Below are positions 24,130 through 53,481 of a DNA stretch of 58,976 bases, in pieces (position 1 is the stretch's first letter; the number at the start of each line of letters is the position of its first letter). Origin of the DNA: Pseudomonadota bacterium (GTDB lineage Bacteria; Pseudomonadota; Gammaproteobacteria; CALCKW01). Under the pieces are notes generated by a model that saw only the letters and a program-made list of their open reading frames with translations, had not been told where the DNA came from and made no database searches. Position numbers and translations under genes: made by a program. The stretch spans positions 1 through 58,976 of the forward strand of contig JBCCUP010000027.1 in NCBI GenBank assembly GCA_039196715.1. The letters run 5' to 3'.

Positions 24130-25778
24130 GAGGACTGCCCCAGCCGCGATTCGATGCGTTCGACCATGGCCGCCGGCACACGCGGTTGTTCCAAGGCCTC
24201 GAGCAGGCGGTCGCGTGCCGACTCGGGCAGATCGGTGTTGGCGTTGACCGCGTCGCGCAAGCGGGCGCGACGGGCGTCGTCGAGGGCGATGGTGTCGCCG
24301 TCACCGCTGCCGGCTGCAGACCCTGCCCCGCCGCCCATGCGGTTCTGGAAACGCTGCCACATCGCCGCACTGATTTCGCCGCTGTCGATGCGCTCGAGCA
24401 GCCGCGCCTTGACGTCGGCCGGCATACGGGTGTTGTTGCCGATGGCAGCCCGCAACCGGGCCTGCTGTGCCTCGGTCAGTTTGACGGTTTCGCGTTGTTC
24501 GATCTGCCGGTCGGGCCCGACTGTCTTGACACGCACACCAGGACCAAGCTGCGCGGTCCGGGCCAACACCAACCGCGCGTCCGCGGGCAAACCGGAGACG
24601 ATCAGGCTGTCACCCTGTCGGCGTTCAACCCTCGAGCGCAGCTCGACCAGCCGGTCTTCGTCGTCAACCACCAGCACACGACCGTCGTCGGTCGCGGCGG
24701 CACGCGGGATCAGCGCGACGCCGCTCAGCGCCGGTTCCTCGATGGCCACCGTGACAAAGTCGCCCACGGTGAGGGCGCCGGGCAACGGTGGCTGCAGTTC
24801 GGCGTAGACCAGCCGGCCGGACTGACCGTCGCCCACCTCGGCACTGATTCGCGAGATGCGCGCCTGCAACTGGATGTCGCGTGCACCCATCTCGAATTCC
24901 ACCGTCAACGGTTGCCTGAGCACCTCGCCTCGCGCGTCGACCAGGTGTGCGAAGGCTTCCACCGAGACGCGGAACGCCACCTCGAGCGCAGTCGGGTCGA
25001 TCAAGGTCGCCAGGCGCTCGTTGGCGCCGACGCGCCGACCGACCACCGCGTCGACCTCACTGAGCACCCCCTCGAACGGCGCGAGGATGCGCGTGTCCTC
25101 GAGGTCGCGCAGCGCAGCATCGCGTGCCAACACGCGACGTTCGATGCCGATTTCGGCGCGCGCCACGCGTGCCTCCGCCTGGGCAATCGCCTGCTTGCGG
25201 GTGACCAGCGACTGTGACGAACTGGCCAGGGCCAGTTCGGCGGCTTCGACGCCCGCGTCGGTGTCGAAGCCGCGCCGCTTCAGGTCGCGCGCCCGCGCCA
25301 GCGCCCGCTCGCGCAACCGGTGCTGCAACTCTGCAGCCGTCAGCTCCTCGACGCTGAGCTCGAGTGCGCGTTGCGCGTCGGTGAGTTCGGTTCGCGCCTC
25401 GGCGACGTCGGTTTCGCGGCTCGCCAGGGTGTTCTCGGCAATCACCGGGTCGATCTCGAACAACAGGTCTCCGCGGGCCACGCGCCCTCCATCGCGCACC
25501 GCGTCGCCGATGGCCGTGACCGTGCCCGCGCTGGCGGACCGCACGTCGGCGGTTTGCCAACTCTGCAACCGACCGAAAGCCCGGGACACCGGGGCGAGCG
25601 TCGTCGGTTCCACTGGCGTCACTGACACGGTGTAGACGCGTTCCTGTGCCGGCCGGCCATCGCGGCGACCGTCGCTGTCCGCGTCCGCCTGGATGAGCAC
25701 ACCCACCCCGAGCACCAACAGGCCCAGGGTCAGCGCGAGCAGGAACACGCCAGAGAGCGCGCGCAATAGAAATCGCAT
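24126..25778 (-). CDS. HlyD-family periplasmic adaptor with C-terminal tandem repeat
   Basis: Membrane-fusion protein of 550 residues. An N-terminal anchor (residues 3-28) is followed by a lipoyl half-motif (SAGTVTAIGDAVRDGGRVARGD), a long alpha-helical hairpin (~105-200) and a second lipoyl half with LAPFEGVLSEVDAVVGRRVGANE, then beta-barrel and membrane-proximal parts to ~430. Residues 434-481 and 499-546 are two copies of a 48-residue helical unit, 19 of 48 positions identical, joined by a Gly/Ala/Ser linker. Typical adaptors end before this. The ATG at 25778 begins the anchor. It works with the RND permease encoded immediately downstream. Confidence 0.92.
   Translation of the reverse strand: MRFLLRALSGVFLLALTLGLLVLGVGVLIQADADSDGRRDGRPAQERVYTVSVTPVEPTTLAPVSRAFGRLQSWQTADVRSASAGTVTAIGDAVRDGGRVARGDLLFEIDPVIAENTLASRETDVAEARTELTDAQRALELSVEELTAAELQHRLRERALARARDLKRRGFDTDAGVEAAELALASSSQSLVTRKQAIAQAEARVARAEIGIERRVLARDAALRDLEDTRILAPFEGVLSEVDAVVGRRVGANERLATLIDPTALEVAFRVSVEAFAHLVDARGEVLRQPLTVEFEMGARDIQLQARISRISAEVGDGQSGRLVYAELQPPLPGALTVGDFVTVAIEEPALSGVALIPRAAATDDGRVLVVDDEDRLVELRSRVERRQGDSLIVSGLPADARLVLARTAQLGPGVRVKTVGPDRQIEQRETVKLTEAQQARLRAAIGNNTRMPADVKARLLERIDSGEISAAMWQRFQNRMGGGAGSAAGSGDGDTIALDDARRARLRDAVNANTDLPESARDRLLEALEQPRVPAAMVERIESRLGQSS
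24141..24479 (-). repeat. Coding tandem repeat at adaptor C-terminus
   Basis: Two ungapped 48-codon units encode L-x2-A-x2-ARLR-x-A-x3-NT-x2-P-x5-RLLE-x8-AAM-x2-R-x3-R. They are separated by 17 codons for a Gly-rich linker. The repeat is seen at protein level and the DNA copies have diverged. Confidence 0.8.
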
Positions 25779-42786: not shown

Positions 42787-43593
42787 GTGCGCGACATCCT
42801 CGATTTGGACACCTACCCGATCGACGCACCGAGCACACCGGCGGCCGCGGCCCTGGTGGCGACGTGCAAGGCGTCGCTGGCCTCGCGCGGCCTGTTCAAC
42901 CTCGACGCGCTGGTGCGGCCCGAGGTCACAGCGGACCTCGCTGCCGACCTCGGTGCCCGGGTTTTCGCCGAGGGTTTCGAGCACCGTCGACGGCACAACA
43001 TCTACTTCGACGACAGTGTGGCTCTGGACCCGTCACACCCCGCTCGTCAGCAGGTCGAAACCTGCAATCACACCTTGTGCGCGGACCAGCTGGACCGGTC
43101 TGCGCTCGACCGCATCTACCGCTACCCCGCGTTGATCGATTTCGTCGCCGCCACCCTCGAGAAGCCGGCGCTCTACCCGATGGCCGACCCGTTGGCTGCG
43201 GTCAACGTGATGGGGTACCGCGAAGGCGAGGCGCTCAACTGGCACTTCGACCGGTCCGAATTCACCATCACCTTGCTGCTGCAGGCGCCCGACAGTGGCG
43301 GTGAGTTCGAATACCGACAGCACGCGCGCAGCGACACGGACCCGAACTACGACGGGGTTGCACGGCTGCTGCGCGGTGAGGACATGGCTGTGGAGCGCGT
43401 GCGCCTGACACCGGGCACCCTGAATGTGTTCAAGGGCCGCAATACCGCCCACCGCGTGACGCCTGTCGGCGGGGCGACACCGCGGCTGATCGCCGTGTTT
43501 TCGTATTTCGATCGGCCAGGTGTGCACTTCAGCCCGTCAGAGCAACGCGGTTTCTACGGTCGCGCCACGTCCACTGCCCCCGGCACCCGCTGA
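42787..43593 (+). CDS. 2OG-Fe(II) oxygenase, ArpA-like
   Basis: Protein of 268 residues with a late double-stranded beta-helix. The iron triad is H and D of NWHFDRSEF and H of NTAHRVTPV, and a C-terminal R (TPRLIAVF) is positioned to bind 2-oxoglutarate. The first ~100 residues are helical and specific to the group. The GTG start has a GAGGT site just upstream. The free-amino-acid halogenase/hydroxylase group is a structural possibility, but the substrate is not known. It is divergent from the Fpg-like gene. Confidence 0.85.
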   Translation: MRDILDLDTYPIDAPSTPAAAALVATCKASLASRGLFNLDALVRPEVTADLAADLGARVFAEGFEHRRRHNIYFDDSVALDPSHPARQQVETCNHTLCADQLDRSALDRIYRYPALIDFVAATLEKPALYPMADPLAAVNVMGYREGEALNWHFDRSEFTITLLLQAPDSGGEFEYRQHARSDTDPNYDGVARLLRGEDMAVERVRLTPGTLNVFKGRNTAHRVTPVGGATPRLIAVFSYFDRPGVHFSPSEQRGFYGRATSTAPGTR

Positions 43594-43618: not shown

Positions 43619-43855
43619 TCAGAACGCCTTGAAGGTCAGCGTTGTGAGCGAATCCTTGATGCCGTCCAGCGTCAGGATGCGCTCGTTGATGAACCGCCCC
43701 ACGTCTACACCGTCGTCGATGTAGACCTTCATGAGCAGGTCCCACTCCCCGCTCGTGGAATAGAGTTCCGACGCAATCTCCTGCGCGTACAGCTCGTCGG
43801 CAACCGTGTAGGTCTTGCCCGGAAAACAGCGAAGTTGAACGAAAACGCAGGTCAT
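43619..43855 (-). CDS. Stand-alone Lrp/AsnC-type RAM (ligand-binding) domain
   Basis: Protein of 78 residues consisting only of the Lrp/AsnC regulation-of-amino-acid-metabolism domain (ferredoxin-like alpha/beta), for example SGEWDLLMKVYIDD and the NERILTLDGIKDSLT region. There is no DNA-binding domain. Such stand-alone domains assemble into rings and bind amino acids. It lies downstream of the kynU/kynA remnant, separated by 70 bp, a context that suggests a link to tryptophan metabolism. Confidence 0.85.
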   Translation of the reverse strand: MTCVFVQLRCFPGKTYTVADELYAQEIASELYSTSGEWDLLMKVYIDDGVDVGRFINERILTLDGIKDSLTTLTFKAF

Positions 43856-43925: not shown

Positions 43926-44139
43926 TCACATCGCCGTGCCCATGTGCCGAAGTTCCGGGAAGTCTTCCACCTCGAGCATCAGCTCGAGGCACGAGACACC
44001 GCACGTACCGCGACGGAAGTCACAGCATGTCGTCGTGCGCGTCGAGCACCGGGTCAAGGCACAGGTCGTCGCCGTAGGGCATCCGTGCCCGGAAATCGGT
44101 TTCGGCGCCGTCACGCGACGGCGCGCGGGGGCCGCTCAT
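43926..44139 (-). pseudogene. kynA (tryptophan 2,3-dioxygenase) remnant
   Basis: An ATG at 44139 overlaps the kynU stop (ATGA) and opens a reading frame that looks like the start of tryptophan 2,3-dioxygenase: ...TDFRARMPYGDDLCLDPVLDAHDDML, matching the family's M-x-YG-x-Y-L-x-LD-x-x-L-x-A-Q ... HDEML. It ends at a TGA at 44020. In another frame, the last ~31 codons to the TGA at 43926 (FRRGTCGVSCLELMLEVEDFPELRHMGTAM) match the enzyme's C-terminus (K-x-GTGG-x-x-GV-x-YL ... FFPELW). About 200 residues of the middle are missing, with a frame change and several substitutions. Protein function is lost. Confidence 0.8.
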
Positions 44140-45329
44140 GTGACCGTCGCACGCCGTTGGTAGACCGCTTGATCCCAGGCCCGGCTCGCCATCACCTCGG
44201 CCAGCACATCGCAGGCGCGGTCGACATCCGCCAAACCGAGGTAGAGCGGTGTGAAGCCAAACCGCAGCAGATCGGGCGCGCGGAAATCCCCGATCACGCC
44301 CCGATCGATCAGGGCCTGCATCACGGCGTACCCGTCGGCAAAGGCAAAGGACACCTGTGAGCCCCGCTCGCTGGCGGCCCGGGGAGACGCGAGCGTCAGC
44401 ATCGGGCACTCGGCTTCGACCCGCGCGATTAAATGCTCGGAGAGCGCAATCGACTGCGCGCGCACATCCTCGAGATCCACGCCTTCCCACACATCAAGCG
44501 CCGCATTCAAGGCCGCCATCGCGAGCACCGGTGGCGTGCCGACCCGCATGCGTTCGACGCCGGCAGCCGGGCGGTAACCGGGCTCGAAGGCAAAGGGCGC
44601 GTCGTGCCCGAGCCACCCGGGCAGGGCCGGGTCCAACGCGTCGGACAGGCTTCTCTCGACGTAGATGAACGCCGGCGCGCCCGGCCCGGCGTTGAGGTAC
44701 TTGTAGGTGCAGCCCACCGCGAAGTCGACACCCAGGTCACCGACGGATAACGGCAACGCGCCAGCCGAGTGCGCGAGGTCCCAGACCACCAGCGCACCGG
44801 CGTCGTGCGCGCGCTGTGTGATCGAGGCCATGTCGTGCACGCGTCCGGTGCGGTAGTCGACGTGCGTCAGCATCACCACCGCCACCGACTCGTCGATGGC
44901 ATCCGACACCGCGTCGGGCGCAACCGTCTTCAGCGTGTGACCTCGGTCGATGGTGTTGATCAACCCGTCGACCATGTAGAGGTCGGTGGGGAAGTTTCCG
45001 GTGTCGGACAGCACGGTCTTGCGCGACGGGCGCAGCTGCAACGCCGCCGCCACCGCCTGGTGGACCTTGATTGACAGGGTGTCGCCGACGGTCGTCTGCC
45101 CGGGGGGCGCCCCGATCAGGCGTGCGATGCGGTCGCCGACCGCGGCCGGCTGCGCCATCCAACCCGCTCGGTTCCAGGCCGTGATCAGCATGTCACCCCA
45201 CTCGTTGCGCACGGTCTGCTCGAGGGCGCTCAGCACGCCGTTCGGCAACGGCCCGAGTGAATTTCCATCGAGGTACACCGTCCCACCTGGCAGGTCGAAA
45301 CAGGCGCGGGTTCGCGCGAAATCGGTCAT
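44136..45329 (-). CDS. kynU: Kynureninase
   Basis: PLP-dependent enzyme of 397 residues that cleaves kynurenine to anthranilate and alanine. The N-terminal YLDGNSLGPLP, the DTGNFPTDLYMVDG region, VVWDLAHSAGALPL and the PLP-lysine segment FAVGCTYKYLNAGPGAPAF are all typical. The ATG at 45329 begins the homologous N-terminus. It appears intact. Its stop overlaps the start of the kynA remnant, indicating an original kynU-kynA operon that lost kynA. Confidence 0.95.
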   Translation of the reverse strand: MTDFARTRACFDLPGGTVYLDGNSLGPLPNGVLSALEQTVRNEWGDMLITAWNRAGWMAQPAAVGDRIARLIGAPPGQTTVGDTLSIKVHQAVAAALQLRPSRKTVLSDTGNFPTDLYMVDGLINTIDRGHTLKTVAPDAVSDAIDESVAVVMLTHVDYRTGRVHDMASITQRAHDAGALVVWDLAHSAGALPLSVGDLGVDFAVGCTYKYLNAGPGAPAFIYVERSLSDALDPALPGWLGHDAPFAFEPGYRPAAGVERMRVGTPPVLAMAALNAALDVWEGVDLEDVRAQSIALSEHLIARVEAECPMLTLASPRAASERGSQVSFAFADGYAVMQALIDRGVIGDFRAPDLLRFGFTPLYLGLADVDRACDVLAEVMASRAWDQAVYQRRATVT

Positions 45330-45393: not shown

Positions 45394-46332
45394 TCAGAAT
45401 CGGAGGTTGGCCACCGCCGCGGCCAACGCGGGCTGTCGCGCCAGCGCACCGCGCTCGGCGAGCCCGCGCCAACCCTGCACACCCCCGGTGTGCACCAGGT
45501 GCAGCTGCGCGCGGCCAGCGCGAGCGCACCAATGCGCCGCCTTGCCGGTGTACAGCGGGTCGAACAGCACGCCGGTCTCAGCGTAGGTGCGGGCCAGGAA
45601 ATCGAGCAGCGGTGCGTCGACCTTGCCATAACCACCACGCGCCGCGTCGACCGTCTCGACCACGCCATCGCCGAGCTTCGCAGCACGGGTCTCCCCCATC
45701 GCGCCGACAACATTCGCCGCAATCAGGGCCACCGCTGCCGACAGACCGCCGCGAAGGCCGGTCACGGTGGCCCCGGTGCCCATCGGCACGACCAGGGTCC
45801 GGCAATCGGCAAGCTGCAGCCCCGCAGCCAGGCGGCGACACGCGGCGACACCGACCGGGTCGTTCCCCCCTTCGGGAATCAGCACGTGGTCGGGGTACGT
45901 GCGCGCAAGCCAGTTGGCAAAGGCCGCCGACTCACGGCGTGCGTAGGTGGCGCGGTCGACGCGCTGAATCCGCATGCTCCAGCGCGCCGCATCGCGCAGC
46001 GTTGGGTTGTCGAGGTCGGCGTGCAGACCACGCACGATACCCACCGTGCGCAGACCGAGGCGCTGGCCGGCCGCCGCGAGGGCGTGCAGGTGATTCGAGT
46101 AGGCGCCGCCGAGGGACACAACCGCGTCCGCGCCGGTTGCCATCACCGCAGCCAGACGGGCTTGCAGTTTGGGCCCCTTGTTGCCCGATTGACCGGAATA
46201 GCAGCGGTCAAGGCGGTGGACCGTGAGGCAGGCGCCGCCGGGCAGCACGATACGCTCACGGGGCACCGTGGGCGGTCGATCGGGCCGCACCGGACTGCTA
46301 AGCTCCGGTGACTTTGTCCTGTCTGGTGCCAT
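45394..46332 (-). CDS. PLP-dependent ACC deaminase / D-cysteine desulfhydrase-like protein
   Basis: Fold type II PLP enzyme of 312 residues. The Schiff-base region reads SGNKGPKLQARL, followed by the LGGAYSNHLHALAAAGQRLGLRTVGIVRG stretch, LIPEGGNDPVG and the Gly-rich PMGTGATVTGL PLP-phosphate loop. It belongs to the 1-aminocyclopropane-1-carboxylate deaminase/D-cysteine desulfhydrase group, but the actual substrate is unknown. The chosen ATG at 46332 overlaps the divergent lptE ATG by 2 bases, which is unusual; a GTG a little downstream is an alternative start. Confidence 0.82.
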   Translation of the reverse strand: MAPDRTKSPELSSPVRPDRPPTVPRERIVLPGGACLTVHRLDRCYSGQSGNKGPKLQARLAAVMATGADAVVSLGGAYSNHLHALAAAGQRLGLRTVGIVRGLHADLDNPTLRDAARWSMRIQRVDRATYARRESAAFANWLARTYPDHVLIPEGGNDPVGVAACRRLAAGLQLADCRTLVVPMGTGATVTGLRGGLSAAVALIAANVVGAMGETRAAKLGDGVVETVDAARGGYGKVDAPLLDFLARTYAETGVLFDPLYTGKAAHWCARAGRAQLHLVHTGGVQGWRGLAERGALARQPALAAAVANLRF

Positions 46333-46831
46333 GAAAGCGACTGTCATTCTGCTGTTCTGCCTGCTGTTGGGCGGCTGCGGGTACCACCTGCTGGTGCCCA
46401 CCGCGACGCCCGAGCCGATTCACGTGACGGTGCGTGACAGCGGTGCGCCGCGGCTCGCGGCGACCTTGCGGCAGCGTCTGCAGCTCCACGGCCTGATGCG
46501 CGCCGACGCCACGGCGCGGCGCACGGTCACGGTGCGCGCCGAATCCACCGACCAGCGCCTGTTGGCCATCGACAGTGCCGGCCGCGCCGCAGAATACCGC
46601 GAGGAACACGCGGTGCAAGCCCGCGCGCACTGGACGGGCGAGCAGCCGGGCGACTGGCGGGACTACAGCGCGATCCGGGACTACGCCTACGACGCGTCTG
46701 TGGTGCTCGGCAAGGACCAGGAGAGGCAACTGATACTCGAGGAGATGCGGGTCGAACTCGCCGACCGCATCATCGAAAACCTCGTGTACGACGCCGTGCA
46801 CGCCGTGCAGCGCTCGGCCGAGGACGGCTGA
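46331..46831 (+). CDS. lptE: LptE-like LPS-assembly lipoprotein
   Basis: Lipoprotein of 166 residues with signal and lipobox LLLGGC (Cys at 18), followed by GYHL as in LptE/RlpB. The C-terminal helix pattern SAIRDYAYDASVVLGKDQERQLILEEMRVELADRI follows the LptE family closely. It would plug the LptD barrel in the outer membrane during LPS insertion. Normally lptE sits between leuS and holA, neither of which is here, so it is an orphan copy or relocated. Other Gly-Cys lipoproteins could mimic this, but the helix pattern is strong. Confidence 0.78.
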   Translation: MKATVILLFCLLLGGCGYHLLVPTATPEPIHVTVRDSGAPRLAATLRQRLQLHGLMRADATARRTVTVRAESTDQRLLAIDSAGRAAEYREEHAVQARAHWTGEQPGDWRDYSAIRDYAYDASVVLGKDQERQLILEEMRVELADRIIENLVYDAVHAVQRSAEDG

Positions 46832-50539: not shown

Positions 50540-51676
50540 TCAGCCGCCGAGCACGGCGAGCAGGATACCGGCGGCCACCGCCGACCCGATCACGCCTGCG
50601 ACGTTGGGACCCATGGCGTGCATCAACAGGAAGTTCTGTGAGTTGGCTTCGAGGCCCACTTTGTTGGCGACCCGCGCGGCCATCGGCACCGCCGAGACTC
50701 CCGCCGCACCGATCAGCGGATTGACAGGATCGGCACTGAGGCGGTTCATCAGTTTGGCCATCAAGACTCCGGCGGCCGTGCCCACCGAAAAAGCCACGGC
50801 GCCGAGCGCCAGGATACCGAGCGTTTCAACGCTCAGGAATTGGTCAGCCGAGAGCTTGGACCCGACAGCCAGCCCGAGAAAGATGGTCACGATGTTGATG
50901 ATTTCATTTTGCGCGGCCTTGTTCAGCCGGTCGACCACCCCACAGACCCGCAGGAGGTTGCCGAAGCAGAGCATGCCGATCAGCGGTGTCGCGTCCGGCA
51001 GCAGCAGGGCCGAAAGCGCGAGCACCAACAGTGGGAACGCGACCTGTTCACGCACACTGACCTGACGGAGCTGCGTCATCGGCAAGGCGCGTTCGCGCTC
51101 GGTCGTCAACGCCCGCATGATCGGCGGCTGGATGATCGGCACAAGGGCCATGTACGAATAGGCCGCCACCGCAATCGCGCCGAGCAGCTCGGGCGCGAGC
51201 CGCGCGCTGACGAAGATGGCCGTGGGCCCGTCTGCGCCACCGATGATCGCTATTGCCGCGGCCTGCTCGATCGTGAAATCAAAGCCCGGCACCGCGTTGA
51301 GCGCGACGGCACCGAGCAGGGTCGCGAAAATCCCGAACTGCGCCGCAGCACCGAGAATCAGCATGCTCGGTCGTGCAATCAAGGCGGAGAAATCGGTCAA
51401 GGCACCGACCCCCATGAAGATGAGCAAGGGAAACACGCCGGTCTCGAGGCCCGCGTTGTAGAGCATGCCGAGCAGACCGTCCGGGCCGCCGATGCCCGCG
51501 ACCGGGATGTTGCTCAGCACGCAGCCGAAGCCGATCGGCACCAGCAGCAGCGGCTCGAACTGCCGCGCTATGGCCAGGTAGAGCAGCCCGCCGCCCACGG
51601 CGATCATCGCCAGTTGCGCGACGTCGAAGTTGGCCAAGCCGGTGGATTCCCACAGCAGGATCAGGGCGTCATTCAT
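50540..51676 (-). CDS. oadB: Na+-translocating oxaloacetate decarboxylase beta subunit
   Basis: Integral membrane subunit of 378 residues with about nine to eleven helices. It decarboxylates carboxybiotin and pumps Na+ outward. Signature segments are [55 protein letters not shown] and the late [30 protein letters not shown]. Its start overlaps the oadA stop by 4 bp (ATGA). It forms the pump with OadA and OadG. Confidence 0.97.
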
Positions 51677-53481
51677 TCGCGGATTGACACCAGCGCCTGG
51701 CCCTGTGCGACTGCGTCGCCCTCGCGCACGGCCACCTGGGTGACAGTGCCGGCCTTGAGCGAGCGGATTTCGGTTTCCATCTTCATCGCTTCGAGCACCA
51801 CCAGCACGTCGTCCACCGCGACGTGTTGCCCTTCGGCGACCAGCACCTTGAACACGTTGCCGGCCAGCGGCGAGGGCATCACCTCACCCGCCCCACCGGA
51901 CGGCGCTGCGGTCGCGCTTGCCGCCGGTGTCGGCTGAGACGAAGCCTCGATCGGCGCGATGTAGTGGACGTCGCCACCGCTGCTGACTGACACCTCGTAG
52001 GTGTTGCCGTTGACGTTGACGCGGTACATCTCAGGCACATAGTTGCCGTCACTCTGCGTCGGCGTCTCGCTCGGCAACTCGAGCTCCTTGCCAGTCGGCT
52101 CGGGCTCGAAGGCATCGGGGTTGCCCCGGTTTTCGAGAAACTTGATGCCGACCTGCGGAAACAGCAAGTGGATCAACGCTTCCTCGTCGATGTGTTCGCC
52201 GAGCGCAATACCCTTGACCTGTGCAATGCCCTGCAATTCGCCCGTCAATCGGTCCATTTCGTTCGGCAGCAGGTCCGCCGGGCGCTGCTCGATGACTTCG
52301 TGGTCGGCTCCCTCGAGTACCCGGGCCTGCAATGCCGCGTCGACCGGTGCCGGGGTGGCGCCGTACTCGCCGAGCAACACGCCGAGGGTCTCCTTGGTGA
52401 TCGTCTTGTAGCGCTCGCCGGTCATGACGTTGAGCACCGCCTGCGTGCCGACGATCTGCGACGTTGGCGTCACCAGGGGGACGAATCCGAGGTCCTCGCG
52501 CACCCGTGGCACCTCTTCGAGCACTTCGTCCATGCGCTCGCTCATGCCCTGCTCGCGCAGTTGGTTCTCCATGTTGGTCAACATCCCTCCCGGCACCTGC
52601 GCCGCGAGGATGCGGGCGTCGACCCCGCGCAATTCGCCCTCGAACTTGGCGTACTTCTTCCGCACCGCACGGAAGTGCTCGGCGATCGGCGCGAGCGAGG
52701 CCTGACTGAAACCGGTGTCGTGTTCGGTGCCCTCGAAAATGGCGACAAGCGACTCGGTTGGCGAGTTGCCGTAGGTCATGCTCATCGAGGAGATCGCGCC
52801 GTCCGCCATGTCGAGGCCGGCTTCGACGGCCTTGACGATGGCGCTGGTCGACAAGCCGGTGGTGGCGTGCGTGTGCAACGCGATCGGCACCGACACGGTC
52901 TCCTTCAGCCGTGACACCAGCTCGTAGGCCACATACGGCGTGATCAGCCCGCTCATGTCCTTGATGCAGATCGAGTGGCAGCCGAGGTCCTCGAGCCGCT
53001 TGCCCATGTCGATCCAGGTTTCGATCGTGTGCACCGGGCTGAGGGTGTAGCTCATCGCCCCCTGCGCGTGGGCGCCGTTGGCAATTGCAGCTCGGATCGC
53101 CGTTTCGAGGTTGCGCACGTCGTTCAGCGCGTCGAAGATCCGAAACACGTCCATGCCGTTGGCCACGGCCCGCGCCACGAAGCGCTCGACAACGTCGTCG
53201 GCGTAGTGCCGGTAGCCCAGCAGGTTCTGCCCGCGCAGCAACATCTGCTGGCGGGTGTTCGGCATCGCGGCCTTGAGCGTGCGCAGCCGTGCCCACGGGT
53301 CCTCGCCGAGGTAGCGGATGCAGGCGTCGAAGGTGGCGCCTCCCCAACTCTCAACCGACCAGTAGCCCGCGCGGTCGATGGCCTCGCACACCGGCAACAT
53401 GTCGGCGATCCGCAATCGGGTTGCAAAAAGGGATTGGTGAGCATCGCGCAACACCAATTCAGTGAGTTTCAAACCAGCCAT
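51673..53481 (-). CDS. oadA: Oxaloacetate decarboxylase alpha subunit (biotin carrier)
   Basis: Peripheral alpha subunit of 602 residues: an N-terminal carboxyltransferase TIM barrel ([25 protein letters not shown] and [15 protein letters not shown]), a PYC_OADA region and a C-terminal biotinyl domain with biotin lysine K567 in [11 protein letters not shown]. It transfers the carboxyl group from oxaloacetate to biotin. Between OadG and OadB in the usual G-A-B order. Confidence 0.97.

Follow-up and report, generated by a model that had tools for sequence, protein, structure and literature searches.

A kynA pseudogene lies directly behind an intact kynU in the window, the whole stretch of 58,976 nucleotides that was analysed and that represents one entire contig (C27) of a 4.95-Mb draft genome (G000; 169 contigs, 96% complete). 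The function of tryptophan 2,3-dioxygenase (TDO) has very probably been lost from a kynU-kynA operon, and kynU was retained most likely for kynurenine from outside, a reading to which we give a probability of about 0.85. With kynA broken and kynU intact, this bacterium probably draws on kynurenine that other organisms produce.

Identification of the kynA relic

The features of the locus are listed in Table 1. The 5' remnant opens with an ATG at 44139 and reads MSGPRAPSRDGAETDFRARMPYGDDLCLDPVLDAHDDML, up to a TGA at 44022-44020, and the 3' remnant, (CD)FRRGTCGVSCLELMLEVEDFPELRHMGTAM, runs in a different frame from about position 44018 to a TGA at 43928-43926. The initial annotation had described both ends of a TDO in two frames, with a start overlapping the kynU stop, as a decayed kynA coupled to an intact kynU, and the sequence was found to be as described. 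The alignment that it proposed for both frames was successful in part only: neither remnant matched Pfam, which is too insensitive for such short kynA ends, so that a clade-specific profile of 275 positions, based on 33 intact TDOs encoded beside kynU in other genomes, was required. This profile matched the 5' remnant with 22.4 bits and the 3' remnant with 19.8 bits, versus 7.1 and 7.3 bits, respectively, for the best of 20,000 shuffles. The matches covered model positions 3-33 and 249-274, in the correct order and at the correct ends, and assigned both the N and the C end of the relic to TDO. Pairwise BLOSUM comparisons of the two remnants with the TDO of a relative from the same genus (G002) lay 13.6 and 14 SD over shuffles. 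An alignment with the kynA of G002 at the DNA level was uninformative, and a search of relatives with the relic DNA retrieved nothing beyond a single match of 22 bases and the window. Homology combined with operon context, disabling lesions and relaxed constraint, which together characterize a pseudogene, were all found in the kynA relic.

Table 1. Features of the kynU-kynA locus (window coordinates)
Feature	Position	Strand	Remarks
kynA 3' remnant	43926..44018	(-)	other frame, ends with TGA; GTGG loop 3 residues shorter
Deletion junction	44018..44024	(-)	about 593 bp of TDO core gone and frame shifted, relative to the intact G002 TDO
kynA 5' remnant	44020..44139	(-)	codons 1-39, closed by TGA; 7 residues missing in frame ahead of HDDML
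ATGA overlap of kynU stop and kynA start	44136..44139	(-)	read directly from the sequence
kynU, kynureninase, 397 aa, intact	44136..45329	(-)	TIGR01814, PDB 1qz9, conserved positions
PLP-dependent ACC-deaminase / D-cysteine-desulfhydrase-like gene	45394..46401	(-)	TIGR01275, 68.9 bits, below cut-off

Lesions and loss of constraint

Relative to the 279-residue TDO of G002, the relic lacks 199 residues between ...HDEML and FKHG..., close to the estimate of about 200 made in the initial annotation. The deletion of about 593 bp left four bases and a shifted frame, and the dioxygenase gene is shortened by about 70%, catalytic core included. Segments FIIQHQ and WRFNH, which by X. campestris TDO we take to hold the active-site and haem-ligand histidines, were both part of the lost core. 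No continuous frame runs through this histidine-bearing region, and with its loss TDO activity is not expected from the relic. Two further in-frame deletions, of the 7 residues before HDDML and of 3 residues in the GTGG loop, had not been mentioned in the initial annotation. The replacement of conserved Gly and Tyr residues noted there was recovered in the alignment columns (Y26D, G248D, Y261C, and deletion of G252 and G254), as were two other changes (W275R and R278G).

Altogether, 15 of 35 near-invariant TDO positions were lost from the relic (4/13 in the N part, 11/22 in the C part), whereas the highest losses in any intact TDO were 2/15 and 1/22, respectively. Set against the 0 of 111 lost from kynU, this indicates that the relic has for some time drifted free of constraint, an outcome not to be had from a mis-join, and it points to real decay beyond an assembly gap alone. 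It is therefore very improbable that a full kynA exists whose core was collapsed or mis-joined by the assembler. The genome is admittedly a draft in 169 contigs, but a deletion due to assembly alone would have left normal ends, unlike those of the relic with their losses and two small deletions, which resemble no intact TDO; moreover, no TDO core fragment was found on any other contig by Pfam or tblastn. Still less credible is the recruitment of the short frames as a new functional miniprotein made from TDO ends: the 39-codon frame does retain its start in the overlap with kynU, but the premature TGA, the use of two frames and the conserved residues missing from either part all speak against it, and the same short form was seen in no relative among the kynU loci scanned.

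Search for other pathway genes in the genome

According to the initial annotation, kynurenine would have to enter from elsewhere, and this agreed with the gene content within the limits of a draft genome. A second TDO was found in G000 neither with the Pfam model nor by tblastn, whose matches were the two relic pieces only. The IDO model (PF01231) gave no match either, which is weak evidence because this model was silent in all control genomes as well. The draft state and 96% completeness of the genome count against the preferred reading to the extent that another kynA could sit in the gaps. It also counts against this reading that the 3-hydroxyanthranilate dioxygenase family gave no match in G000 and that neither a kynurenine transporter nor an anthranilate route was identified. 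Two Cyclase-family genes of G000 represent candidates for kynB.

Retention of kynU

The product of kynU scored 282 bits with the NCBI kynureninase equivalog TIGR01814 (cut-off 246) and aligned with the kynureninase of PDB 1qz9 (E 1e-120) through the conserved PLP-lysine region, motif GCTYKYLN including K210. Comparison with its orthologue in G001 yielded a dN of about 0.2 and a dS of about 1.8, near saturation, over 118 codons. Purifying selection is the best reading of these values, which represent an average over time and are blind to a very recent release from constraint.

The initial annotation had also considered kynU to be possibly on the way to being lost, a view that found no support. 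A kynU without present use would be in line with its dead operon partner and with the lack of an identified dedicated importer, but we regard it as unlikely, given the complete set of near-invariant positions, the score above the equivalog cut-off, the dN and dS values (which only a very recent release would escape) and the frequency of orphan kynU in other genomes. Retention, probably for the use of external kynurenine, is the better reading for this gene. On this preferred reading, KynU would most likely act on L-kynurenine (or 3-hydroxykynurenine) imported from outside, with anthranilate (or 3-hydroxyanthranilate) and alanine as predicted products. A precedent is found in Chlamydia caviae, C. 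felis and C. pecorum, which carry kynU without kynA and whose kynureninase is fed by intercepted host kynurenine (PMC3937554). These are host-dependent pathogens in which kynU belongs to a trp operon, unlike in the window, and the part of that report drawn on here mentions no TDO relic.

Orphan kynU and other kynA stubs

A survey was performed on 80 kynU loci from named genomes. A full TDO was present on the fetched stretch for 32 of these loci, and a stub for a single one, from Phaeobacter sp. HF9A. Among 46 genomes searched that lack a full kynA beside kynU, 19 (HF9A included) encode a TDO elsewhere and 27 have none, the latter number being an upper bound because the completeness of the surveyed genomes is not given; 12 of these 27 are named isolates and not MAGs. 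A kynU without a neighbouring kynA, or without any, is a common state.

The HF9A stub (L085:4838-4978; 37.5 bits) is comparable to the relic in the window, as a truncated TDO beside an intact kynU. It differs in gene order, since it lies directly upstream of kynU, in consisting of the last 49 or so residues of kynA, and in the presence of an intact TDO elsewhere in the genome. A C-terminal TDO fragment of 27 residues (25 bits) was also observed in a Hyphomicrobiales MAG, the genome of L038, on contig 150 of G080 (25425-25505), besides two full TDOs. No paper on the loss of kynU or kynA in this group was found in a literature search.

The initial annotation regarded the relic as a snapshot of pathway decay. 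The snapshot is real, well described and clear, with the entry enzyme of the pathway lost and the downstream enzyme kept, yet it is ordinary in kind: a single kynA pseudogene is by itself a fresh instance of an already known type of relic. Together with the many orphan kynU genomes, it makes kynurenine cross-feeding among free-living bacteria a testable idea.

Relatives and origin of the locus

The relic resembles tryptophan 2,3-dioxygenase (TIGR03036 / PF03301; PDB 2nox, 2nw7) in its N- and C-terminal sequence, its position beside kynU and its translational overlap; the absent 199-residue core and the frameshift set it apart, and it is presumably non-functional. Operons with kynU followed by kynA and an ATGA-type overlap were found in G002 (contig 16; L028:7653), Oricola nitratireducens (L036) and Sulfitobacter algicola (L062), the overlap being judged from match coordinates in the last two; in contrast to the window, kynA is intact in all three. 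G002 also carries a second kynU without adjoining kynA, and in another member of the genus, G003 (99% complete), kynU is present but a TDO is absent. The gene order of the window (P450 / LptE / ACC-deaminase-like / kynU) is shared by G001, including the adjacency of the ACC-deaminase-like gene, which lies 64 bp upstream of kynU in the window. As the contig of G001, the sole syntenic relative, stops inside kynU, no intact forerunner of the relic was observed at this locus, which counts against the preferred reading.

A tree of 87 kynU proteins, built by a quick method and with several modest support values, paired the kynU of the window with that of G001 (support 97), the kynA-linked kynU of G002 with Anderseniella, and grouped the kynU of G003 with Phaeobacter and Shimia; nearly all the remaining proteins were alphaproteobacterial. 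The kynU genes of this one genus (window, L025, L026 and L028) thus occupied several separate places in the tree, a scatter that suggests repeated lateral transfer. Because no 16S was found in G000, its placement among Gammaproteobacteria was based on serine hydroxymethyltransferase, which matched a gammaproteobacterial MAG at 74% versus 61-62% for four alphaproteobacteria. Taken together, tree and marker indicate that kynU was probably acquired several times within the genus, a view that we hold loosely. With the same caution, the G002 operon, whose kynU sits elsewhere in the tree, looks like a parallel acquisition and not a direct ancestor. An alpha/beta hydrolase near the kynA of G002 was considered as a formamidase and rejected, as NCBIfam names it a hormone-sensitive lipase.

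As regards the order of events, we infer that an ancestral kynU-kynA operon, probably acquired laterally, would have suffered the large deletion, with removal of the haem-binding and catalytic core of kynA, and that the remaining ends would have gathered substitutions and small deletions. Kynurenine uptake and a physiological role of the orphan enzyme would follow from the same reading. A wider proposal, namely that the genus repeatedly acquires kynU from alphaproteobacteria and sheds kynA, the orphan kynureninase being a trait selected for the salvage of kynurenine that other organisms release and not a remnant, is tentative and in our opinion rather less probable than not.

Other genes in the window

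A HalD-family gene (PF23169, 47 bits) at 42787-43593 converges on the kynU region and reads WHFDRSEF, i.e. an H-x-D motif. This motif is that of Fe/2-oxoglutarate hydroxylases, H-x-G/A being that of halogenases. Just downstream of the kynA relic, positions 43619-43855 encode a stand-alone Lrp/AsnC ligand-binding domain protein of 78 aa without DNA-binding part, which was found near kynU in no fetched relative. The alpha and beta subunits of a Na+-translocating oxaloacetate decarboxylase are encoded at 50540-53481, and this block is common to G001, in the same order towards kynU.
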